Source: a virus. From it: DNA of 30,094 nt. The position numbers were made by a program, and so were the translations under genes. Under the pieces are notes generated by a model that searched no databases, was not told the DNA's origin, and saw only the letters and a program-made list of their open reading frames with translations. The first letter of the stretch is position 1; the number at the start of each line of letters is the position of its first letter. The stretch lies in the IMG/VR virus record IMGVR_UViG_3300009788_003000, positions 1 through 30,094 of that record. One strand, given 5' to 3'. Positions 11,046-29,554 of this stretch are shown here, one piece after another.

Positions 11046-14000
11046 TTAACTTAGCGTTACCTCGTTAGGTGTGGAACGAGCGATCGCATTATCGTTAATT
11101 GTAATACGTTCTGTAATAAGTTCTGGATCAATCAATACAACTGACTCAACACCTGCTGTTTCCTTAACAATACAGACGATATCCGAAAGGATTACATCTG
11201 CCCCTAAGCCTAAACTATTGATAAATCCTACTACGGAACTCTTAATGGTATCGCTGATTGATGCTAATGCAACACCCTCTTTAGTCTTAACCTTAATATT
11301 AAGTGTTACACGCTGAATTTGAGGCTCTCTTGCTTCAATCGCTACACCTGCCGCCCTTACTCCTGGAAAGGTTGTTGAATCAGGCTCATGTCCATCTAAT
11401 ACTCTTTGAACTCGTCGCTTTAATCCAATCCAATATTGATATCCAGAAATACCCGGAACAGGATCTGTTGCAAAACCAAGTCGGTTAGGCAAAGACATTC
11501 TTGCACCTTGGCCTTCATTTAGAAGCGATATATCATATCCAGGTTCAACAATAACTAATGCGATGTTTGTTGGATCAGATGGTGATGGAGCAATTGTTCT
11601 AATCGTTCGATAGGTTTCATATCCTTGATCAAGAATCCTAATTGAATCAGTTCCTGATACTCCTAAAGGAAATGGACCCTCTGCGACGGCGTTTGCATTG
11701 TCATAATCAACTTCAGTTGTTGATTCAATATTAGTAATTGTAAACGTTCCTTGATTGGCTGAAACAAATGGTGAACTTTCGCCAATAGAAATTTGATCAC
11801 CTGGCCTTGCAGAGTGATAAGGCATGAATATAAATGGCGCTGAAGTAGCATCCACAAATTGTTCTACTGCCTGAGTATTATCGACATCAAAATAAGTTGA
11901 GTTATCAGTTTCTCTTACTTGAAAAAAACCTTGATTAGCTGATGCAAAAAGTTGTGGAGGAGTTGTTCCAGCATAAGTTGTTCCATCACCAATCAATACC
12001 CAATCACCCGCTCTAAAGGGTGCTGATGGAATTGTTGCGGTTCCTGCGATTACTTCAAATCGAACTCGATTTCTTGAAAGTTTTCTAACTACCCAAGTAA
12101 CGGTTCCTGTATGAGTGAAACTAAATGTTGATGCTAATGCCTCACCAAATGTTAATCGTCCACCACCCGAGACCAAAGCAATCTCGGCTGTGGTTGCTGC
12201 GGATGGAGGAGTCCCAACAAAGTCTTTTCTTGCTCGTCCAGTTTGAAATAAAAAGATTTGATGACCTGGAGCAAGAAGTTCTAAGCCTGATCGGTCGATT
12301 TGGACAACGCCTTCACTGGCAGATATTGTTTGAGATGATCCTTTTAGGGATAGTATATTAACCCCCGAGGCAGTACCCCCAACAGCATTTACTTGTCCTA
12401 CAGCCCCAGGAACCTTACTAGCTACCTGTATTTTTCGTGCCCCATTGACTAAATCAATGTCTGCTGCAATTGATAATCCGCTAATTTGCTTACGATTGAA
12501 GTGGTCTGCAATGTTTTGGGGTGTCATGGGTATTAATCTAAAGACCTCCCCTATCTCTGGTACCAGGGTAAGGGGTTCTTTTAGACGTAAAGCGGGTGAT
12601 CCTGCACCCGTGCTAAAGATAAATGACTCCCCATTCTTCAATCTAACCCGTTCACTAGTATCTAATAGTTCATCAGCCGTTGATGTATCAATGATACCCG
12701 CACCAGATGACCCGGATGCATTAGCTGCACCAATAATGTCATTCACACCAGCAGTGTTATTGACTGCATCAATGATGTCTTGAGCAGTGTTTGATGCTGA
12801 ATCCAATTCAAATACACGTACACCAGTTGCTGATGACGTACTAATTGTCTCATTGACACCTGCAAGCGCACGCTTTGCTTCTATAATGATACGTGAAATG
12901 GTACCAGCAGCAGGCCCTGTGAATGTAAATGAGCTATCAACCTCAAATTCAGTCGGTGAAACAACGAGTGTAACGGTAAGAATTTGTCCTGCAACCTGGA
13001 TTCTGTCTCCAATTGCTATTGCAAACGATGGTGGAAGGCTTGATGTTAAAACAATGTGTTCAATATCGTAGTCATATCCATCCCCAATGGCAGGAATAGC
13101 CGTAACATCTACATCCGAAACACCATTTACTACTGTTACAATACCTAATACAGGGGTAATTGTTTGTATAAGGGGGTCTGTTGGGATAACTAGGGATGTA
13201 GGATCAGGGGATATACCATAAAACTTCCCTAATGAAACATCATAAGAGGTATATGTGAACGGACTAGCCCCTGCTGTAATTGCCCCCCCACCGGTAGCAT
13301 AGGCCCCTCCAGTAGGTACGGTCAAAGTAAATTGTTTAATGGCTTCACCACCTACTAATGGCGGAGTAACTGTTGGATCGGGAGTAACACCGTTAAATGT
13401 TCCTGTACCAATTGTGTAAGAGGTATAAGTAAATACGGTTGGGATGCCGCCAACTTCAATCGTTCCACCTGATGGATCAAATGTAATACCAGGCGTTCCA
13501 ACAATAGTTGTTGCAGTAAATCCAGAAACCGTATCAAGAGTATTAACTGCTGTAACTAATTTAGTAATTGAAGTTGCTGTTACACGATCACCTACACGCA
13601 TTGCCGTTGCTGGAACAGCACCAAATACAACATTATTTGGACCACTGGTAACAACTGAGTTTTGAATTGTTTCAGTTAAATGTTCATAAGTAAGTGTTAC
13701 ATCAGTTAGATTTGTAATTGTTGATATCTTCATTTGGCCTTGATTAGCCGCAGAAAAATTTGGATCATTTAAAGCAACAATATCTCCAAGTAAAACTGTT
13801 GATAGATCAACTGGAGTTACGAATTGAATTTCGTAAGTAAATTCTCCACCAACTGGACCAGTAAATGAAACCTCAACTTGTTCATTTGGACCAAGACCAA
13901 TAGATCTTTCAACATCACTAGCAAGAACAGCACTAATTAAAATATCACCTGATGCTGCATCAACACTAAAACTTGCTGCTGCTATTGTTGATGGTGTGGA

Positions 14001-17000
14001 TGGATAAAATATTCCAAATAGAACTCGGGTTCCATTGGGTCCGAATAAAACAGATGTAACTCTAATTTCTGTATCAGCAACACTAAATGGGGTATTTTCT
14101 CTTGATTTAAACCATGCTCGATAATCTTCAAATCTGTGACCTAACCATTTAGACGAAGAACCAAGAAGTTCAAGAGTGCTATCTGCTGCATCAAATGTAG
14201 TTGAAGTTGGAACCGCAGGCGCTGCAATAGTTGCTTCAACAAACATTGGTATATCAAAAGTTTTTCTAGCAGGATCATTATCAATAATAAAAACTTGATT
14301 ATCATCTTCTCCCAATTCAACCGCATCACCAGTAACAGCTTCAAGATCAGGACCAAGTCCATTTACTTGAAAAGGTTCTTCATTTCGAAGAGTTAATGTA
14401 GAAGAAGTTAATTGTTCAAGAGGCTGACGAATTAATTTGGGATGATGACCAAGATATCCCATAAATGGTCTATTATTATGTTCCGAATTAAATGGAGTTC
14501 CATTAGCATCAACATCAATAAATGGATCTGTTAAATCATTTACTGAAATAGTTATTTTTTGTGAGGGAAGACCAAACAAATCTGCGGATTCAATCGTAGC
14601 AATATGGGGATCATTTGATTCAAAGTTACCAGGATCGATTCCTAAATTAACAGCATTACCAGCAATAGCTGGAATTCCAAGAGCGCCAGATCCATCTAGT
14701 CGTAGGGTTTGAAATCGAACAACTCCAGAATCTAATACTTCGGCTTCTGCTCCTGAAACTTGAGAATTAAATGATGAAACAACGGAAGCTCCTGGAATAG
14801 CTGCTCCAACAGGAAAATTTACTTGTTGTGGAAGAGCATCAGTGGAATCGGCTCTAAAGAAAATAATTTGTTTTGTAATCGCATCTGGCGTGTCCGTTGT
14901 CGCAAGAGGTGCTGGATCATAAAGATCAACACTTGATCCATCACTAGCAACATCTCTAACTTTAAAGATTCCTCCTCTTGGAAGATTATATTGATGACAC
15001 CAATCATCAACTTGTACGGCTGAGAATTGTCCAGCAATACCAGCAATTCTTTGAATGTCAGTTGATGGTGCAGAATAGGTAAGGAGTGACGCTATTTGTG
15101 AAACAAATAAAATCTCAATATTTGCGTTAGGAACAACAACCATTTGTGCAGCCGTTCCTAAAACAGTTGAGAGATCAAAAGTTGTTTGAGCAAGACTTTC
15201 CGCAAAACCAGCAGTGTTAACTGTTCCAGCTTTTAATTCTTCTGTTGAATCAAGTCTGTCTATTAATTCGATTTGTCCTAGTAAACGATTTAGTCTGAAC
15301 TCTGGAGAGTTACCGGTTGACGTATCGTTTTCAGCAAAAAGTTTACCAACAAAACTTCCAGACAAAATCGTGAGTTCTGCTTGACTATTTCTTCCCCGAT
15401 TAGAGGTAAGGATAAAAGTACCGTCATCTCTGGCTGTAGCTGTAATCCCGATAAATTTAGCATTAAATACAACTGCAAACTCAGCAGGGCTTGCTCCTAA
15501 AATAGTTGATGATGCAGTTAATGCAGAAAAATCTGCATCAGTAATTGTTATTACTCCAGTTGAAATCCCATCAACTTCAATTTCTAAAGTTTCACTCGAA
15601 GTAAATGGGGGCCATTCAGATTGAGGAAAACTTTGAATAATGGCTTCTTGACCATTCTTTTCTAGTAATTGATCGTTTTTATAAAGTCTGATTGTGAATT
15701 GTTTTCTAAGAGGAAATCGAATAACTGTATTTGCATCATTTTCAGAAGCTGTACCTACACGAATAAAATCTGGATCATCTGAAAGAGGTGTTACAAAAAG
15801 TCTTCCATCTTTTGCTCTTGCTTCAACAGTTGTAAAAACAGTATTAATTGTTTCAGCTATTTCTTGAGCGGTTACAACACCAGGAGATCGATAGGCTGTA
15901 TTAGGAAGAGTTCTTTCTTCTGATTCACCATCAACTTCAAATAGAAGACTTTCTCCGCCATCAAGTGCAAATGGTTCTGTACCAATTGAAGCCACTTGTG
16001 CTTTAACAACTGGCCATTGTTGAAGTTGTAGGAATTGTTCTGTTCCGGCAGCACTGGAAACAATAACTTCTTCACCAACACCAGCAAATGATGGTTCAAA
16101 TCCTGTTCCATCATCAATGAAAAGAATACCTAATTGACCGGTTTCAGTTGGTTCTCGCAAAAAGGCTGATACAACCCGTTTTCCTTCATCAGGATCATTG
16201 ACTCCAATAACAGTACTAATGATAGCTCTTTGGGTTCCACGCCCAAGGTCATGAACATGATCTTTAATTCGTTGTCTTAATTCACTGTCGGTTTCAGTAT
16301 CTTGACCACCTGTAGCAGTCTCTTCATTCGTAACTAAAGCAGATGCAAATGGTGGAGATGAAAATTCACTAATCTTACCAATACCAACATTTCCATTTTC
16401 TCCTGGTTCAGTTGCAAGAGCATCAACATCTGTAACAGTATCTTCTCCATCAAAAAGAGTTTTATCTCGAAGTGTTCTAAAATTAATTGTTGCATTACCA
16501 GCAGCGGCAGGAACCGTTACAATTGTTCCAGCAGGAATAATACGATCGCCACCTTGAGCAAGAACTACCTCTTCACCAACAAGGTGGTCTTTTGTAAGTG
16601 GTGTTGAGAGAGTAAACTCCCAAAACGTACCAGTATCAACAACACTTGCATATCCAATTGATTCAGAAGTTGAAGTTCCTCGCCCCATGAAGATTGTTCC
16701 AGAAGCAGAAAATCCTGTAGCATCAACAACTTTAAGGATTGTGTCTCCAGCAGCAGGAGATACAGCACCTGCAAAAATTGTTGTCGATTGTTTTATAAAT
16801 GATGTGTCTTGAATAGTAAGAGGAACAGTTGCCGGTTCAGCACCTAATCGGGATGGGATAACACCCGATTCTTCAGCCAAGTTTTCAAGATCCACACCTT
16901 TGGATTTATCAACATCTCTTAATCTGAGAAGTTGTAACAACTTACCTTCTTGAGTGAAATCTGAAGACGCAGCAGCTTCAATCATGGTCAAAAATACTGA

Positions 17001-17096
17001 TCCTGGATTGAGATCGGTCAAATTAGTTTCAGCCAATAATTTGGCAATCATTTGACCCGCAATTTGTTGATATGATCTTAGTTGGATATCTGCCAT
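11046..17096 (-). CDS. Giant baseplate J-like protein (2016 residues)
   Basis: The N-terminal 330 residues follow the baseplate J/gp47 plan: helical start, LENLAEESGVIPSRLGA, IPAGT near 190, and the hallmark GGQDTETDSELRQRIKD at about 265-282. The last 120 residues return to the J-like C-terminal domain (REPQIQRVTLNIKVKTKEG, then ADVILSDIVCIVKETAGVESV). J proteins form the baseplate wedges that join hub to fibres in contractile tails. Typical members have 300-500 residues, so about 1500 residues of beta-rich sequence are inserted between the two halves. Near residues 1200-1300 there are two copies of a FTYTSY...F-GxxPDPT unit. The middle (about 12350-13350) looks less AT-rich than the rest. 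The start has a weak SD (AGAGG). Confidence 0.88.
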   Translation of the reverse strand: MADIQLRSYQQIAGQMIAKLLAETNLTDLNPGSVFLTMIEAAASSDFTQEGKLLQLLRLRDVDKSKGVDLENLAEESGVIPSRLGAEPATVPLTIQDTSFIKQSTTIFAGAVSPAAGDTILKVVDATGFSASGTIFMGRGTSTSESIGYASVVDTGTFWEFTLSTPLTKDHLVGEEVVLAQGGDRIIPAGTIVTVPAAAGNATINFRTLRDKTLFDGEDTVTDVDALATEPGENGNVGIGKISEFSSPPFASALVTNEETATGGQDTETDSELRQRIKDHVHDLGRGTQRAIISTVIGVNDPDEGKRVVSAFLREPTETGQLGILFIDDGTGFEPSFAGVGEEVIVSSAAGTEQFLQLQQWPVVKAQVASIGTEPFALDGGESLLFEVDGESEERTLPNTAYRSPGVVTAQEIAETINTVFTTVEARAKDGRLFVTPLSDDPDFIRVGTASENDANTVIRFPLRKQFTIRLYKNDQLLEKNGQEAIIQSFPQSEWPPFTSSETLEIEVDGISTGVITITDADFSALTASSTILGASPAEFAVVFNAKFIGITATARDDGTFILTSNRGRNSQAELTILSGSFVGKLFAENDTSTGNSPEFRLNRLLGQIELIDRLDSTEELKAGTVNTAGFAESLAQTTFDLSTVLGTAAQMVVVPNANIEILFVSQIASLLTYSAPSTDIQRIAGIAGQFSAVQVDDWCHQYNLPRGGIFKVRDVASDGSSVDLYDPAPLATTDTPDAITKQIIFFRADSTDALPQQVNFPVGAAIPGASVVSSFNSQVSGAEAEVLDSGVVRFQTLRLDGSGALGIPAIAGNAVNLGIDPGNFESNDPHIATIESADLFGLPSQKITISVNDLTDPFIDVDANGTPFNSEHNNRPFMGYLGHHPKLIRQPLEQLTSSTLTLRNEEPFQVNGLGPDLEAVTGDAVELGEDDNQVFIIDNDPARKTFDIPMFVEATIAAPAVPTSTTFDAADSTLELLGSSSKWLGHRFEDYRAWFKSRENTPFSVADTEIRVTSVLFGPNGTRVLFGIFYPSTPSTIAAASFSVDAASGDILISAVLASDVERSIGLGPNEQVEVSFTGPVGGEFTYEIQFVTPVDLSTVLLGDIVALNDPNFSAANQGQMKISTITNLTDVTLTYEHLTETIQNSVVTSGPNNVVFGAVPATAMRVGDRVTATSITKLVTAVNTLDTVSGFTATTIVGTPGITFDPSGGTIEVGGIPTVFTYTSYTIGTGTFNGVTPDPTVTPPLVGGEAIKQFTLTVPTGGAYATGGGAITAGASPFTYTSYDVSLGKFYGISPDPTSLVIPTDPLIQTITPVLGIVTVVNGVSDVDVTAIPAIGDGYDYDIEHIVLTSSLPPSFAIAIGDRIQVAGQILTVTLVVSPTEFEVDSSFTFTGPAAGTISRIIIEAKRALAGVNETISTSSATGVRVFELDSASNTAQDIIDAVNNTAGVNDIIGAANASGSSGAGIIDTSTADELLDTSERVRLKNGESFIFSTGAGSPALRLKEPLTLVPEIGEVFRLIPMTPQNIADHFNRKQISGLSIAADIDLVNGARKIQVASKVPGAVGQVNAVGGTASGVNILSLKGSSQTISASEGVVQIDRSGLELLAPGHQIFLFQTGRARKDFVGTPPSAATTAEIALVSGGGRLTFGEALASTFSFTHTGTVTWVVRKLSRNRVRFEVIAGTATIPSAPFRAGDWVLIGDGTTYAGTTPPQLFASANQGFFQVRETDNSTYFDVDNTQAVEQFVDATSAPFIFMPYHSARPGDQISIGESSPFVSANQGTFTITNIESTTEVDYDNANAVAEGPFPLGVSGTDSIRILDQGYETYRTIRTIAPSPSDPTNIALVIVEPGYDISLLNEGQGARMSLPNRLGFATDPVPGISGYQYWIGLKRRVQRVLDGHEPDSTTFPGVRAAGVAIEAREPQIQRVTLNIKVKTKEGVALASISDTIKSSVVGFINSLGLGADVILSDIVCIVKETAGVESVVLIDPELITERITINDNAIARSTPNEVTLS

Positions 17097-19220: not shown

Positions 19221-19336
19221 AAAAAATCATCCAAAAACATTAATAAAAGTATGCCGCTCCACCACGGAGCACCCAAAGATAAAAGTCCAACATAAATAGC
19301 GCCAGCAACAGCAAGTTTTTGTGCTCCTGCATTCAT
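19217..19336 (-). CDS. 39-residue membrane peptide between RNA ligase and phosphoesterase
   Basis: This is a short reading frame, MNAGAQKLAVAGAIYVGLLS... ending ...MFLDDFL. It has one long hydrophobic segment with Gly and Ala, typical of a single transmembrane helix (about residues 8-36, interrupted by a WW-containing turn). Its ATG overlaps the stop of the RNA ligase gene (TAATG) and its stop overlaps the phosphoesterase ATG (ATGA). Such tight coupling on both sides argues that it is translated. The peptide is unrecognised. Confidence 0.65.
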   Translation of the reverse strand: MNAGAQKLAVAGAIYVGLLSLGAPWWSGILLLMFLDDFL

Positions 19337-20433
19337 TAATGAAACTCTGTATTTTCTTTAAGTAAATATTCGGAATTAATCGATTTCAATATTTTACGAC
19401 CGATATGACATTTGGCTTCTACTTGAGGCCGAACGACCACACCCTCACGAATCTTTTGACATCCACAAAGAGAAGATTTCCCACCAACAATTTTATCAAG
19501 ATCAACTTCTGCAAATTTTCCTTCATATAAAACTGGAACAACATCTAATGAATGAAGGGCTCCAAAAATTGGTATATTTATATGATTAAGATATTTTCCA
19601 TCTTGCATTACATCAAAAACAATTAATTTGGTTTGACCTTCTTTTAATCCGTAGCCATATCCTTTTTGAATATTTGGTCCATAAATCTCACCATAAACGA
19701 CCTGACCTGGGCCAAGCTTTTCTTTGAGATTGTGAGTTACTACTGCATCTGCATAAACGTTCTTGTCGTAATATCCCTTATAAAGGAGCTTTTGACTAAG
19801 TTGAACGTTATGACTTCCATAAATGAATTCATGTTTTGGTGCTAAACCAACTAAATGTTTAATTTTTTTCCACCAAGTATTTGGATCATAAGGAACCCAT
19901 CCAGCACGAAAATTTGTTCCATGTATTTTTTCAGTAATAACCACATCATCTTCAGGGTCAAAAACTTTGTGATTATTCTTGATGTTTTCAATAGAAGTGT
20001 ATTTATGAAAGTTTGTATTTGATTTATAACGCTTTTTTGTTTTATTACCCATTCCCTGAAATCTTGGAGATGGTGGTTCGTATTTAGTGATTCCAAGTTT
20101 GTCCGTTACATCAGCTCCAACAGCCGTGTCCCAAACAAGACCAACATCTTTTAAATTAACAACTAAGCCCTGAGAGATAGCACCCCTTAATTTAATGGTT
20201 TTGACACGGTGCTTACTCAGTTTAACCTTTGAATCTTTACCAAAGATGTCGGCTTCTAAAGTTTCTGGTAAAACACTATCAACTGGAATATAAACGACTT
20301 TATCACCAACTTTATATTTGTCTTTTTGAATAACACAAAACCATCCTTTTAATCTGGCAAGTTCGAGTTTATCTGCGTTGGGATGTTCTGAAATTTCTTC
20401 AATTTTAAGAATTTCAACTTTTAACGATGACAT
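19336..20433 (-). CDS. ATP-dependent RNA ligase, DRB0094 (Rnl5) type
   Basis: This 365-residue protein starts with an OB-fold domain similar to EMAP-type tRNA-binding modules (ISEHPNADKLELARLKGW, about 14-31) followed by the nucleotidyltransferase. Motif I is TEKIHGTNF with Lys169 as the AMP-accepting residue. Motif III is GEIYGPN (E249), IIIa FDVM (about 273), IV EGVVVR (E330) and V GRKILKS (K347, K350). The N-terminal OB plus ligase plan is that of the Deinococcus radiodurans RNA ligase family. These seal 3'-OH/5'-phosphate nicks, with a preference for an RNA 3' end. AAGGAGGAAACC gives a strong SD. The start overlaps the upstream HNH stop by 13 bases. It is the head of a ligase, membrane peptide and phosphoesterase cascade. 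Confidence 0.92.
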   Translation of the reverse strand: MSSLKVEILKIEEISEHPNADKLELARLKGWFCVIQKDKYKVGDKVVYIPVDSVLPETLEADIFGKDSKVKLSKHRVKTIKLRGAISQGLVVNLKDVGLVWDTAVGADVTDKLGITKYEPPSPRFQGMGNKTKKRYKSNTNFHKYTSIENIKNNHKVFDPEDDVVITEKIHGTNFRAGWVPYDPNTWWKKIKHLVGLAPKHEFIYGSHNVQLSQKLLYKGYYDKNVYADAVVTHNLKEKLGPGQVVYGEIYGPNIQKGYGYGLKEGQTKLIVFDVMQDGKYLNHINIPIFGALHSLDVVPVLYEGKFAEVDLDKIVGGKSSLCGCQKIREGVVVRPQVEAKCHIGRKILKSINSEYLLKENTEFH

Positions 20434-20948
20434 GGTTTCCTCCTTGAAAGACCAGAGTGTTTATCATTGTGACAGTTTCTACATAATAAAATGAGATTTT
20501 TTAAAGAATTTAACCCACCCTTAGAAGCTTCTTTTTTATGGTGTGCTTCTAAATTCCATAAGTGATTGTGACCGCACTCTATACACCTTGGATCTCGTCC
20601 ACTTTGTAAAATCTTTTTCTTTATTTGACTTCTTTTGACTTTTTCTATTGGCTTTCTTCTATGGATTCCAAGACATCTCTTACTACAAAATCTATTTTTT
20701 GATCGATTCCATTGACTTTTGTTTCTAGGATTAAGCATCTTCCCGCAAGTATTGCAGTGTCCAATTTTTTTAGGTTTAGAGAAAAGATTAGATAATCGTT
20801 TATATTGACAAAGTTTACAATAATTCAGTTTTTCCGATTGAACCGATCCATATCCTCCCTTAAGGCGGCATATATCACAAATAATACGATATTTTTTGTT
20901 TCGCACCCCGCCATACAGGGTAGTAATAAAATCTTTTCGATCATACAT
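20421..20948 (-). CDS. HNH endonuclease with several zinc-binding motifs, leaderless
   Basis: This 175-residue Cys-rich protein has CxxC at 24/27, 44/47, 65/68 and a C88/C92 pair, then the HNH domain: C122xxC125, EAHHKKEASKGGLNSLKNL and C156xxC159-HNDKH. The nuclease motif is complete. It is a probable free-standing homing or nicking endonuclease inserted beside the RNA ligase gene, which it overlaps by 13 bases at its 3' end. The ATG at 20948 lies six bases after TATAGT. A second ATG four bases downstream is out of frame. No SD is visible. Confidence 0.85.
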   Translation of the reverse strand: MYDRKDFITTLYGGVRNKKYRIICDICRLKGGYGSVQSEKLNYCKLCQYKRLSNLFSKPKKIGHCNTCGKMLNPRNKSQWNRSKNRFCSKRCLGIHRRKPIEKVKRSQIKKKILQSGRDPRCIECGHNHLWNLEAHHKKEASKGGLNSLKNLILLCRNCHNDKHSGLSRRKPCHR

Positions 20949-22758: not shown

Positions 22759-23003
22759 TGGGCATTCACATCTCTCCATCAACTATGCCTGATGCTCTAA
22801 CACCAATTTGTAACGACTGTGGGGTCGCATTGTGCTGGGACGTTAGCGTTGTAGAATACATGAAACGACCCAACTTTTGGGATGGGTGGCGCTGTCGGGA
22901 TTGTTACCCAGTTTACAAAGCTACTTTATTGGACAAACGCCACCGGCGCACTCTACAGAATCAAGATCGCCTCCACCGATTTCAGCAATATTCACTGGTT
23001 TAA
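22758..23003 (+). CDS. Small zinc-ribbon-like protein (81 residues)
   Basis: I chose the ATG at 22758, which overlaps the previous stop (TGATG). A TTG start at 22740 is less likely. The protein has ICNDCGVALCW (about 18-28) and WRCRDC (about 48-53), a two-CxxC zinc ribbon, then a basic C-terminal tail. The last 83 bases overlap the 3' end of the ribonucleotide reductase gene on the other strand. A zinc ribbon of this kind often binds nucleic acid; the role here is unknown. Confidence 0.6.
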   Translation: MGIHISPSTMPDALTPICNDCGVALCWDVSVVEYMKRPNFWDGWRCRDCYPVYKATLLDKRHRRTLQNQDRLHRFQQYSLV

Positions 23004-25842
23004 TCTTTTTAATTGCTTTTTCATAATCGTCTTTAGAAATAGCTTCTTCTGGTGCTTGAATAAATCCATGATCCGAATGACAAAGAAAAGAAATAGTTTT
23101 TATATTCTTTAAATTATTAGTTAACCACTCTTTAATTTTGGAGATTTCTTCTTTTTTATAATAAACCGTTACTGAAACCGATTGATCACTCCAATGTTTT
23201 TGAGCAAGCATAACCGTATCCAATTGTTTCCAAGTATCAAATCCCTGATCAGCACATGGAGTATTTCCATTAAACTCTCTATAAAAAGACACGACCTGAG
23301 TTGAGTGATCTAATGTTCCATCAAATTTTTGAACAGGTTCTATATAGTGACCGGCTTCTTTTAATAATGGAAGACATGGATCATTAGCTGCAAATCTCAT
23401 GCGCCTAATTCCATATCTTGAAAAAGCTGGATGGATGCCTGGGGTACAATCGCCCCAAATACTCATTGTACCAGATGGTTTAACTACAGTTGTTCTAATC
23501 GATTCTGGAATACCTAATTGTTTCGAGTAATCTTTATTTTCCTTTTGTATCGCTTCATATGCACGATCAAGGGTTTTTGGATTAAATAAACTACTCTGTA
23601 AACAACCAGTAATACCAGTGCCGATCCTGCGATTACGTTTAACGACAGAATCATTCTTAGGATTATGGTAACTCTCTAATGTTACACGCTTTCCCCATCG
23701 ATGCATTAAGACCGCTGCTTCTATAAACTCTTCTTCGTCTTTGATGTTGGGTAAGAAGATCTCTTGTAAATTGCACGGCTCGCCATCTTCCAAAATAGCT
23801 TCAGCGCATGGATTAACCCCGACTCCTGTATCGGCTTTCTTTTCACCGATTCGACCATAGATTTGGGCATTTTCTCTATTAAAGATACCGAAGGGTTCAC
23901 CGATTTCATAGGTTTTCCAAAATGATGGATGCAAATCCTCAATGTCGTCGCATACGACTGAAAAGTTGGCCATTGCTCTATAGTTTGGAACATTGAGGTC
24001 CCATCTTTTTGCTCTAAGGTAAGACTTATCCCATGGGTCTCCAAGTATGATGAGAGCGGTTCGTCTAACATTACCTGCAACCACCATTGCTCCAATAATG
24101 CAGAGAAGGTCTGATGCGTCAATCGGACGGATAAACTTGCCAGATCTTCGTTCAAGGAGTTCACAGAGTTTTTTAACGCACTCAATAAGAGGTATTGGAC
24201 CTGAAGCAGTTCCTCCGAATCCGGAAATTGGTTGACCATACCCTCGAACACATACAGTTGAATAACTGAATGATCGACCTGAAACGAAATAGGAGTGTAA
24301 AACTTTTCTAATGAGATGACACCATCCTTCTCGTGAATCGGGAACAATGAAATCGGCATCATTTGTGTCTTTGTGTAAGATTCTAACATCTTTTTTCACT
24401 CTCGGTAATTTGGAAGTAAATCTATGCTCAACACTCATTCCTACGCCACCACCAAGCATAAGAAGATCCATAGCCATTACAAAGTTATTCCAATCATCTG
24501 ACGTAGTAAACCAACAATTTGAAGTAAGACAAAACCCTTCAATAACAAACTGTTCGTATTCAGGAACTGTTGCGCAAAGAACTCGATTAATCCCTGCTGA
24601 CCTTATTTTAGTAATCTTAAGCGTTTCTGGTTTTGTTCTTTTTGTTCTCTTCCAAACTTCAAGATCGCAAGACTTTAAGAAAAACTGTTCATTCAAATCA
24701 TTTTTATTAATTGAAAGCCGCCACAGTTCTCTTTCTTGAGCATAATTCGAAGATGTTGAATCAAGATAAACTTCACCAGTTCCAACCCCGAGTTCTTCAA
24801 ATATTTCCTTAACTGCAATGAGTTCATCTCTACGGCTAGAAGAAATACTCATCGTTCCTGTTTTGTGATGAATATGACCATCAGCAGCAAAATAACCCGC
24901 CAAGAAACCAAAAGTATATTTTTGATCTTTCCTATATGATCCCTGTGGCAACTCTCCCCAGGCTAAAGGACAGTGAGGAACTGCGGTATACTCCCCTCTA
25001 TCTATATTGTAAATATTACTTCCAGGAAAGATCTCGGTTATCAATTCACGATCTTCTAACTTAAACTGCCGGAGTTCACCGTTTGATCGTGTTCCATCAC
25101 CAAAAAATAATCCATGCTGGGCACCAGGAATTGACATCTTAAAGTATTTTGGGGGACGAGTCCTTGGTAGAAGATCTCCTTCTCGAAGTTCTTCCGTACA
25201 AACTCTTTCCCATTCTACTTTTGTGTTCTTTTTTCTAAACCAACGATGGTTCAAAGAAGAAATCACTGTATAGGAATGACCTTGTGTGTCTCTGTAGGTA
25301 AGTTCTAAACAAGGATGTTCTTCGGCATGGGAGATTGTGGCGGGTGCCCAGACAGCATTTGCTGCGGTGCTATTATCCCGACCATAAAGTTTTGTATTGG
25401 AAAGAACTGTGACTTCTTCGCCTTCAATGTCTTTAAGAGTAATCCAGCCATGTTCTTTTGTTAAGATCTTTGTATCTTCGTGGAGGGGATTATTTAATGC
25501 TGCACCACCCAAACGTTCTTGTGCAGGTGCTCCTGAGAACCACCAACCACGACCTGCTGGACCTGCTTTGCGATTGCCTAAGAAGTATGCAAGTCTTTCG
25601 ATTTCGTTTGGGAGAAGATGTTTTTGATCGACGAGACGGATATTTCCTTCAATGACCCGCTGAACTGCTTCACGGAAAGTCTCACAACTACCCTTGTCTG
25701 AACGGAGATAAGTGCGTCGAAAAACGATCTTAGCCATGTTGGACCATGTCGTTTCATTAAATTCAATTTTATTAATAGCTTCACTGATTGGTCCATTAAT
25801 AAGTTCAAAAGACGTTGACGTACCTTGCTCTGCTGCTTCCAT
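22921..25842 (-). CDS. nrdJ: Adenosylcobalamin-dependent (class II) ribonucleotide reductase precursor with intein
   Basis: This 973-residue precursor gives a 649-residue mature protein after removal of the intein (residues 119-442). The mature part resembles the monomeric RTPR type of Lactobacillus: FRRTYLRSD near 41, GRGWWFSGAP near 98, GGAALNN-C at 119, NPCAEAILEDGEPCNL with the radical Cys and catalytic Glu, VVKPSGTMSIWGD, and a C-terminal ECAGGVCPIK redox Cys pair. It reduces ribonucleotides to deoxyribonucleotides in the cytoplasm using B12 as radical source, so infection would depend on host cobalamin. GGAG stands seven bases before the ATG. The gene gives a phage its own dNTP supply. 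Confidence 0.92.
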   Translation of the reverse strand: MEAAEQGTSTSFELINGPISEAINKIEFNETTWSNMAKIVFRRTYLRSDKGSCETFREAVQRVIEGNIRLVDQKHLLPNEIERLAYFLGNRKAGPAGRGWWFSGAPAQERLGGAALNNPLHEDTKILTKEHGWITLKDIEGEEVTVLSNTKLYGRDNSTAANAVWAPATISHAEEHPCLELTYRDTQGHSYTVISSLNHRWFRKKNTKVEWERVCTEELREGDLLPRTRPPKYFKMSIPGAQHGLFFGDGTRSNGELRQFKLEDRELITEIFPGSNIYNIDRGEYTAVPHCPLAWGELPQGSYRKDQKYTFGFLAGYFAADGHIHHKTGTMSISSSRRDELIAVKEIFEELGVGTGEVYLDSTSSNYAQERELWRLSINKNDLNEQFFLKSCDLEVWKRTKRTKPETLKITKIRSAGINRVLCATVPEYEQFVIEGFCLTSNCWFTTSDDWNNFVMAMDLLMLGGGVGMSVEHRFTSKLPRVKKDVRILHKDTNDADFIVPDSREGWCHLIRKVLHSYFVSGRSFSYSTVCVRGYGQPISGFGGTASGPIPLIECVKKLCELLERRSGKFIRPIDASDLLCIIGAMVVAGNVRRTALIILGDPWDKSYLRAKRWDLNVPNYRAMANFSVVCDDIEDLHPSFWKTYEIGEPFGIFNRENAQIYGRIGEKKADTGVGVNPCAEAILEDGEPCNLQEIFLPNIKDEEEFIEAAVLMHRWGKRVTLESYHNPKNDSVVKRNRRIGTGITGCLQSSLFNPKTLDRAYEAIQKENKDYSKQLGIPESIRTTVVKPSGTMSIWGDCTPGIHPAFSRYGIRRMRFAANDPCLPLLKEAGHYIEPVQKFDGTLDHSTQVVSFYREFNGNTPCADQGFDTWKQLDTVMLAQKHWSDQSVSVTVYYKKEEISKIKEWLTNNLKNIKTISFLCHSDHGFIQAPEEAISKDDYEKAIKKIKPVNIAEIGGGDLDSVECAGGVCPIK
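24517..25488 (-). mobile_element. Class 3 intein with LAGLIDADG endonuclease in the ribonucleotide reductase
   Basis: This 324-residue insert lies between GGAALNN and CWFTTSDDW of the reductase. It starts PLHEDTKILT, so residue 1 is Pro, not Cys or Ser. Block B is ISSLNHRWF, with His at B:10 and Trp at B:12. Block F is RVLCATVPEYEQF, with Cys at F:4. The end is CLTSN before the +1 Cys, with Thr at G:5 and Ser in place of the usual penultimate His. W-C-T at those three places with a non-nucleophilic first residue defines class 3 inteins, which splice from the F:4 Cys. LAGLIDADG-like motifs GLFFGDGT and LAGYFAADG make it a probable homing intein. The +1 Cys equals the active-site Cys119 of RTPR. 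Confidence 0.85.
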
Positions 25843-28181: not shown

Positions 28182-28427
28182 ATGAATTGGTTTAAAAAAT
28201 TATCTCAATTTCAATTTGGTGGATCAGGAAATTCGCAAGTAATGCAAAGCAACAACACTGTAAATGGCGATTTGGTAGGTGGAAACCTTCAAATATCTGG
28301 CAAAAGTAAAAGTGTTCAAAAATCTGGGGGCATTACCGTTATTAATTGCAATGGACAAATTGTGATTCGTGGTAAAGGAATTGAAACAGTTAATGTAAAT
28401 GGTAAAATTGTATGGCCAATAAAATGA
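28182..28427 (+). CDS. Small beta-rich hypothetical protein (81 residues)
   Basis: I chose the ATG at 28182 because of the strong SD GGGAGGGGGG. The protein, MNWFKKLSQFQFGGSGNSQV..., is rich in Gly, Asn, Val and Ile with alternating polar and hydrophobic residues, as in beta repeats (VNGDLVGGNLQISGKS, IVIRGKGIETVNVNG). No family is recognised. Its end overlaps the DNA ligase start, suggesting coupled translation. Confidence 0.65.
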   Translation: MNWFKKLSQFQFGGSGNSQVMQSNNTVNGDLVGGNLQISGKSKSVQKSGGITVINCNGQIVIRGKGIETVNVNGKIVWPIK

Positions 28428-29554
28428 TTAATCCATTCCTGCCCAAGCTTTACAAGAAAACGTCAACTGGAGCAATTCAACTGTGGCGCATTTGGACAGT
28501 GAGCAATGAGATCCACTCGGAATCCGGGCAGGTTGACGGTAAGAAAATCAAAAGTGTTGATATCATCAAACAAGGGAAAAACATTGGCAAGGCCAACGAA
28601 ACCACCTCAGTGGAACAGGCTCGCAAAGAAGCCGAGGCTCGCTGGACTAAAAAGAAAAAGAAAGGGTACGTTGAAAGTCAGAACGATGCTGCTGCTGGGA
28701 AAACTAGTTCGTTAATCACTGGTGGTTATGTTCCCATGACTGCAAAAGTTTATCAAGATCACAAGAAACATATTGTATTTCCATGTGCTGTTCAGCCAAA
28801 GTTGGATGGGATTCGGTGTACGGTTGAGAACGGAAAATTATTTACTAGAACCAGAAAACCGATCCTCACACTTCCTCATATAGAAAAAGAAATTAATCTA
28901 ACTACACAGATGCGACTTGATGGAGAACTTTATAACCACGATTATAAAGATAATTTTGAAGAAATCGTGCATTTAGTTAAACGAGACGACGTTCATCATG
29001 ATCACAAAAAGGTTCAATATCACATCTATGACATGGAGGAAAAAGGAACTTTCGAGGCACGAAACGATTTAATCTTAAATAAACTGTCTCGAAAATGGAT
29101 TCATGAAGCAGCATCAATAATAAAACCTGTCGAAACCCGCATAGCCAAAGATGAAGCCGAACTCAAACAAATCTATGATGACTTCGTTGAGCAGGGCTAT
29201 GAAGGAGCGATGGTTCGTAACCTTAATTCACCTTATGAAAATAAACGTTCTAAGCATCTTCAAAAATATAAAGAGTTCGTTGATGCAGAATTTAAGGTTG
29301 TGGATATTGAAGAAGGCCGAGGAAAGCTGGCTGGTAGTGTGGGTGCTTTTATTTGTGAGATCAAAGACGAACAGGGTGTCAGAAGATTTAAAACCAAACC
29401 TAAGGGAAAACTGTCTTTTCTAAAGACACTTTTCGAAAATGAAAAGTTATGGAATAATCGAATGATGACTGTTCAGTTTCAAGGATACACTAAAAAGAAC
29501 CATGTTCCACGATTCCCAGTGGGTATTAGATTTAGAGACGATAAGGATTTTTAA
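28412..29554 (+). CDS. ATP-dependent DNA ligase with N-terminal WGR-like domain
   Basis: The N-terminal 90 residues (LYKKTSTGAIQLWRIWTV, then EARWTKKKKKGY) resemble the WGR-like domain found before ligase in some phages. The catalytic domain has motif I QPKLDGIR (Lys130 as AMP acceptor), III DGELYNHDY, IIIa YDM, IV YEGAMVR and V LQKYKEF, then an OB-fold domain ending GYTKKNHVPRFP. The enzyme seals DNA nicks in replication or repair. The start is ambiguous: ATG 28412 overlaps the previous gene by 16 bases, and ATG 28424 overlaps its stop as ATGA. I keep the longer form. Confidence 0.9.
   Translation: MANKMINPFLPKLYKKTSTGAIQLWRIWTVSNEIHSESGQVDGKKIKSVDIIKQGKNIGKANETTSVEQARKEAEARWTKKKKKGYVESQNDAAAGKTSSLITGGYVPMTAKVYQDHKKHIVFPCAVQPKLDGIRCTVENGKLFTRTRKPILTLPHIEKEINLTTQMRLDGELYNHDYKDNFEEIVHLVKRDDVHHDHKKVQYHIYDMEEKGTFEARNDLILNKLSRKWIHEAASIIKPVETRIAKDEAELKQIYDDFVEQGYEGAMVRNLNSPYENKRSKHLQKYKEFVDAEFKVVDIEEGRGKLAGSVGAFICEIKDEQGVRRFKTKPKGKLSFLKTLFENEKLWNNRMMTVQFQGYTKKNHVPRFPVGIRFRDDKDF

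Follow-up and report, generated by a model that had tools for sequence, protein, structure and literature searches.

We found that a viral gene for an adenosylcobalamin-dependent ribonucleoside-triphosphate reductase carries an intein that begins with proline and sits directly before the codon for the cysteine equivalent to Cys119 of RTPR. We posit, at a probability of roughly 0.8, that this is a homing intein that splices by a class 3-type mechanism, in which a cysteine of block F would make the first attack. The gene lies in a 30,094-base virus record from IMG/VR, the whole of which was analysed and is here called the window; features of the gene and its intein are all on the minus strand.

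The interrupted reductase gene

The gene is a single uninterrupted reading frame of 973 aa (22921-25842) that encodes exteins and intein together. It matches NCBIfam TIGR02505 (E 2.4e-98; 330.1 bits, slightly below the cut-off of 340 with the insert included) and aligns residue by residue with the RTPR structure PDB 1L1L (E 3.4e-76), and by these matches its product is a monomeric class II RNR (NrdJ/RTPR). The equivalents of RTPR Cys119, Cys408, Cys419, Cys731 and Cys736 are all kept in the 1L1L alignment. The N-extein (residues 1-118, 25489..25842), delimited by its alignment to RTPR residues 20-118 and by intein-free alleles, ends in GGAALNN. The C-extein (531 aa, 22924..24516), delimited by TIGR02505, the RTPR alignment and the intein-free alleles, starts with CWFTTSD, the first residue of which, Cys+1 (codon tgt, 24514..24516), is the equivalent of the active-site redox cysteine Cys119. 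It further holds the equivalents of the thiyl radical cysteine Cys408 (23806..23808, in NPC) and of Cys419, the redox partner of Cys119 (23773..23775, in GEPCNL), and the C-terminal pair CAGGVC (22933..22950) that corresponds to Cys731/Cys736.

Residues 119-442 of the frame (24517..25488), which constitute the intein of 324 aa from Pro1 to Asn324, match no RTPR. Against intein-free NrdJ alleles (L006-L014, L026), among them relatives at 60-67% identity, the tblastn match of the N-extein stops at residue 118 and that of the C-extein resumes at the next codon; the site is empty in close NrdJ relatives of the window (57-67% identical), and further empty alleles were found in a second locus scan. 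Because the extein matches abut without a missing codon, the ends of the intein are exact, and the original prediction of an intein at 24517-25488 is borne out to the base. Its placement directly before the Cys119 equivalent holds as well, with 1L1L aligning through Asn118; the mass it gave, about 36 kDa, needs correction to the computed 37.2 kDa. A boundary moved by one (Asn1, a final Ser, Asn at +1) was rejected, as every splicing residue is lost, and so was a sequencing error at Pro1, which recurs in eight homologs with four Pro codons. The unspliced reductase can soundly be expected to be inactive, because its active-site strand is interrupted and Cys119 lies beyond 324 extra residues.

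Elsewhere in the window, a minus-strand gene that runs off the end of the record (1-879) encodes a protein with a TROVE (Ro-like) RNA-binding domain (Pfam E 2.3e-24), and a 2016-aa protein (11046-17096, minus strand) matches phrog_6 (baseplate wedge, E 1e-31), which suggests a contractile-tailed virus. Between these and nrdJ, the minus-strand stretch 19336-20948 encodes an RNA ligase with a PHA02142 OB-fold domain (19336-20433), overlapped by an HNH endonuclease gene (20421-20948). An ATP-dependent DNA ligase (28412-29554, plus strand; phrog_114, E 2.8e-76) is encoded on the strand opposite to nrdJ.

Splicing residues, predicted fold and mechanism

Position 1 (block A:1) is Pro (codon ccc, 25486..25488), which offers no nucleophile, so that the intein falls outside class 1, defined by Cys, Ser or Thr at this residue. 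The WCT signature is formed by Trp83 (B:12, 25240..25242), which is Trp in 98/98 members of the family described below, Cys305 (F:4, 24574..24576), the predicted first nucleophile and Cys in 96/96 members with data, and Thr322 (G:5, 24523..24525), Thr in 89/96. His81 (B:10, 25246..25248) is likewise His in all 98 members. The intein ends in Ser323-Asn324 (G:6-G:7, 24517..24522), with Ser in place of His and Asn324 (codon aat, 24517-24519) as the C-terminal cyclising residue. This register agrees between MAFFT alignments of 24, 38 and about 100 inteins and hhalign comparisons to class 3 and NrdA profiles, so the Pro1, the three WCT residues and the Ser for the penultimate His that had been picked out from the sequence alone all stand; the F:4 and B:12 residues, whose possible misplacement had been proposed as a check, lie in the expected columns when aligned with canonical class 3 inteins. 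Pro1, Trp, Cys, Thr, Ser-Asn and Cys+1 are conserved in eight further homologs, one of which (L134) has a sequence that ends after residue ~157, and the pattern therefore exceeds chance. With the window intein, these homologs constitute what we term group I, in which all 8 members with data have Ser at G:6.

We modeled the intein with six extein residues per side by AlphaFold2 from a 16-sequence alignment confined to the window and related loci, without inteins from phage databases (mean pLDDT 87.3, pTM 0.81). In comparisons by Foldseek and VIA-align, the model matches PI-PfuI over 305 residues (1dq3; Z 24.4, rmsd 3.1) and the likewise endonuclease-bearing inteins TliVMA (7qsu) and PI-SceI, and its splicing domain matches the WCT-grafted gp41-1 (6riz) and, over 121 residues at 22% identity, the class 3 Msm DnaB intein (6bs8; Z 17.1). 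The predicted fold is thus that of a Hint splicing domain split by a LAGLIDADG homing endonuclease. The first LAGLIDADG-type motif, QHGLFFGDG (25093..25119), supplies the acid Asp131, which is Asp/Glu in 97/98 family members, and the second, GFLAGYFAADG (24877..24909; PF14528, E 3e-7), supplies Asp203, which is Asp in 97/97 with data. A Hint fold with two such motifs and both catalytic acids retained is what characterizes LAGLIDADG homing inteins.

Under the working rule for class 3, namely an N-end without Cys and a block F whose fourth position (C2:4) is Cys (PMC7891396), the window intein is of class 3: it has Cys F:4, Trp B:12 and Thr G:5, and residue 1 is no nucleophile in 9/9 members of group I. 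Its +1 residue is Cys, and not the Ser/Thr typical of the original description of class 3 from 2010, which the later working definition does not require (PMC5222942, PMC7891396). The published rule thus upholds the class 3 assignment of the original prediction; the unusual Cys+1, on which that prediction made no remark, makes a class 2-like route conceivable. A precedent is the Bvi IcmO intein, the sole class 3 intein with Cys+1 known in 2016, which splices as class 3 and in which Cys+1 is unable to substitute for Cys F:4 (PMC5222942). It shares WCT and Cys+1 with the window intein, to which it is likened by description only, and differs as a mini-intein without endonuclease in another host gene (PMC5222942).

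In class 3 inteins, Cys F:4 attacks the N-junction, the N-extein passes to residue +1 and the terminal Asn cyclises (PMC5222942, PMC7891396). For the window intein, we posit that His81 helps to activate the Asn(-1)-Pro1 bond, which Cys305 would attack, displacing the Pro amine and generating a branched thioester. The N-extein would then pass to Cys+1, the future catalytic Cys119, after which cyclisation of Asn324 would release the intein and an S-to-N shift would rejoin the exteins as ...ALNN-CWF.... Pro1 may help in the first step, as the scissile bond would be a strained tertiary amide, and the LAGLIDADG domain is predicted to carry the intein from one NrdJ gene to another. Boundaries, residues, fold prediction and the pattern of spread come from sequence, and from these we infer splicing, its order and nuclease activity. 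By such a mechanism the redox cysteine of the reductase would double as the intein's second nucleophile, and Cys+1 would broaden the insertion sites available to class 3 inteins.

Cys+1 could alternatively attack the Asn-Pro bond directly, with Cys305 merely a helper. Class 2 KlbA inteins do combine a non-nucleophilic residue 1 with Cys+1 and Ser G:6, but they have class 1-like motifs with Asp at F:4 (PMC4031507), a position that is Cys in the window intein and in every relative with data (96/96), along with Trp B:12 in 98/98. We consider this class 2-like route improbable and favour class 3, because the signature of that class is complete save for Cys+1 and KlbA has Asp F:4. A decayed intein that leaves the reductase dead is less credible still: the penultimate His is replaced and some relatives are broken (e.g., L146, with four stops in the matched stretch), but the frame is open, the catalytic residues and extein cysteines are all kept, the same residues, including Ser G:6, are conserved across group I, dN/dS is low in a close pair, and the AceL NrdHF intein, which has been tested as class 3, lacks His at G:6 and yet splices well (PMC7891396).

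Relatives of the intein and their probable spread

Used alone as a query, the window intein found no close kin in viral or genome contigs; canonical class 3 inteins gave no tblastn hit to it at E<1, phmmer against PDB sequences returned nothing meaningful, and PHROGs and NCBIfam did not recognise it. Its kin were reached only by alignment-based scans. One, with an alignment that included phage RNR inteins, found L133 (52% identical, same site, Pro1), L134 (58%, incomplete) and a wider family at 25-30% identity, and a second yielded 80 viral loci and 10 genome contigs. The resulting family has 98 members, with Cys1 in 84, Pro1 in 13 and Cys+1 in 94; the majority are from viral contigs and ten from genome contigs (bacteria and one archaeon). 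The nearest kin of the window intein are this family, most members of which combine Cys1 with WCT. Because most members keep Cys1, WCT need not mean an unused position 1 in those. Reportedly, Tori and Perler showed in 2011 that class 3 splicing occurs in a few hybrids that have WCT together with Cys1 or Ser1. Among individual members, three Azospirillum genomes (L226, L227, L228) have a Cys1+WCT intein with the junctions QKGFFH-C...GN-CFGCGAHG (hyphens here and below mark intein ends), and L135:2498-3469, L136 and L137 have such inteins in a non-RNR gene, at PN-C or AN-CF(M/L). L146:2501-3462, in which the stops are in frame, also loses its frame in the C-terminal part and is either a decayed intein or a sequencing or assembly error.

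The Pro1 members form two groups, the only Pro1 sets in the family, and both precede the same NrdJ cysteine. Group I (the window, L133, L134, L152-L155, L158 and L222) has the junctions LNN-PL..DT and LTSN-C, and group II (L145, L188, L189 and L197) has GFN-PV or GYN-PV and TGN-C. At position 1, group I uses all four Pro codons (CCC, CCA, CCG and CCT) and group II uses three, and Pro1 therefore appears to be held by selection. Residue B:7 is Ser in 9/9 group I members and Thr in 85/85 others, a candidate co-adaptation. The close pair L152/L153, with dN 0.077 and dS 1.16, is under purifying selection by this measure. The inteins of group I share 43-58% identity with that of the window, while their NrdJ C-exteins are only ~30-39% identical to the window's; this, with the intein-free close NrdJ relatives, is the pattern that homing predicts and points to horizontal spread.

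Canonical class 3 inteins (the mycobacteriophage Bethlehem DnaB prototype; Msm and Mch DnaB-1; TerL of Violet, Gaia and Dusk; Pleione RecB) share with the window intein the same WCT columns, a residue 1 other than Cys, His B:10, a terminal Asn and occurrence in phage genes, and their long forms also contain LAGLIDADG. The TerL intein of phage Violet (L128) also begins with Pro, so Pro1 is not odd in itself. The compared canonical inteins differ in ending in THN followed by Ser/Thr+1, whereas the window intein ends in TSN followed by Cys+1, has an NrdJ host and carries an endonuclease of another lineage.

Intein-containing nrdJ genes (PMC3653736) and a class 3 intein in a phage RNR gene, AceL NrdHF (PMC7891396), are already known. 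The latter resembles the window intein as a class 3 intein in the RNR gene of a likely phage with a G:6 that is not His, and differs in being split, with Ala1, MCT for WCT, Ser+1 and a class Ib beta subunit as host (PMC7891396). An insert in the RTPR gene of Thermobifida phage P318 (MK240575, L002:3265-4179), which carries no annotation in its record, occupies the same NrdJ Cys119 site with the WCT residues and Cys+1, but has Cys1 and a terminal Gln (TGQ-C) and is 24% identical to the window intein; this Cys1 family member is absent from the same site in the relative L111. Inteins of phage NrdA/NrdE (ICP1, SPBc2, PM135, St1.CM and C3PO) also have an RNR host, mostly Cys F:4, mostly Thr G:5 and Cys+1, but differ in Cys1, Phe/Tyr at B:12 and insertion at another active-site cysteine (NL-C). 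The Proteus phage PM135 nrdA (L112:1115-4483) is a single open frame of 1122 aa with its intein, of which the record annotates only a 207-base large-subunit piece. In one viral NrdJ relative, ~50-65% identical (L028:4194-5165; also L029), the Cys119 site is empty and an intein lies directly before the equivalent of the thiyl radical cysteine Cys408 (NP-C...SN-C); it has Cys1 and Asp F:4 and is class 1-like. Within a single enzyme family, inteins of different classes thus occupy two of the active-site cysteines. In the literature searched, we found no description of a WCT family with Cys+1 in which most members have Cys1 and Pro1 groups occupy the Cys119 site; some members may be among the 1701 class 3 inteins surveyed in 2020 (PMC7891396).

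Origins of the proline at position 1

All trees are unrooted and, unless stated otherwise, were built with class-defining columns removed. In the whole-intein tree of 100 rows, group I is one clade (100/100) that joins the Cys1+WCT family (99/88), group II is a second (100/99), with L148, a Cys1 member, next to it (100/93), and canonical class 3 inteins are a third (100/97); the compared canonical inteins also separate as a clade in a tree of 38 inteins (100/98). A first tree of 24 rows could not place the window intein, and the pairing with L028 seen there was rejected as a long-branch join, gone once more kin were added. Whole-intein columns reject both a single clade of groups I and II (AU p 1e-6; p values here are guides, because several tested groups were named after earlier trees were seen) and the union of group II with canonical class 3 (p 0.017). 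A single origin of Pro1 was accordingly rejected on whole-intein columns, yet not on splicing-domain columns alone, where these two groupings have p 0.199 and 0.201. By whole-intein columns, two separate Pro1 lineages are well supported, and the residue-1 nucleophile appears to have been replaced by Pro at least twice in the family.

The relation of group I to canonical class 3 may be one of a shared splicing domain, of domain exchange or of independent loss. The published view is that class 3 is monophyletic and goes back to one event, the loss of the first nucleophile by a phage intein (PMC4031507, PMC3196547); a remark on phage origin in the original prediction leans on it. That remark gains from the splicing-domain tree, in which group I and canonical class 3 come together (98/88), and loses from the endonuclease columns, which reject the union (AU p 0.0085; 0.0003 with sparse sampling). 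On the whole intein, dense sampling does not reject the union (p 0.173), but sparse sampling with the class columns retained does (p 0.015).

It is conceivable, at somewhat less than even odds, that group I and canonical phage class 3 have a splicing domain in common, as a single class 3 origin would have it, and that group I carries an endonuclease related to the Cys1+WCT family, through domain exchange or a basal position. The splicing-domain tree, a common block A flavour (PL..DT, GW) and the dense whole-intein sampling agree with this, but the endonuclease columns, the sparse whole-intein sampling and the position of group I in the 100-row tree oppose it. Just short of an even chance, too, in our estimate, a Cys1+WCT ancestor lost Cys1 separately in group I, group II and canonical class 3, so that the class 3 type arose several times. 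Consistent with separate losses are the rejection of the two whole-intein groupings, the nesting of group II beside L148 and a minimum of three changes of the Cys1 state on the whole-intein tree; however, splicing-domain columns alone allow both groupings and need only two changes, and in an unrooted tree Cys1 could have been regained. That class 3-type inteins had more than one origin we put at even odds.

WCT grafted onto a class 1 intein gives no working class 3 intein (PMC7664689). The Cys1 intein of L148 and the Pro1 intein of L145 are 41% identical and have the same WCT frame and host site, and with such near pairs the loss of Cys1 can be tested in natural proteins. Two metallophosphoesterase/RDF inteins (L111:1187-2131 and L125:513-1463) combine Cys1, Cys F:4 and Thr G:5 with Val B:12 and Ser+1, which by these residues is another mixed class 1/3 signature.
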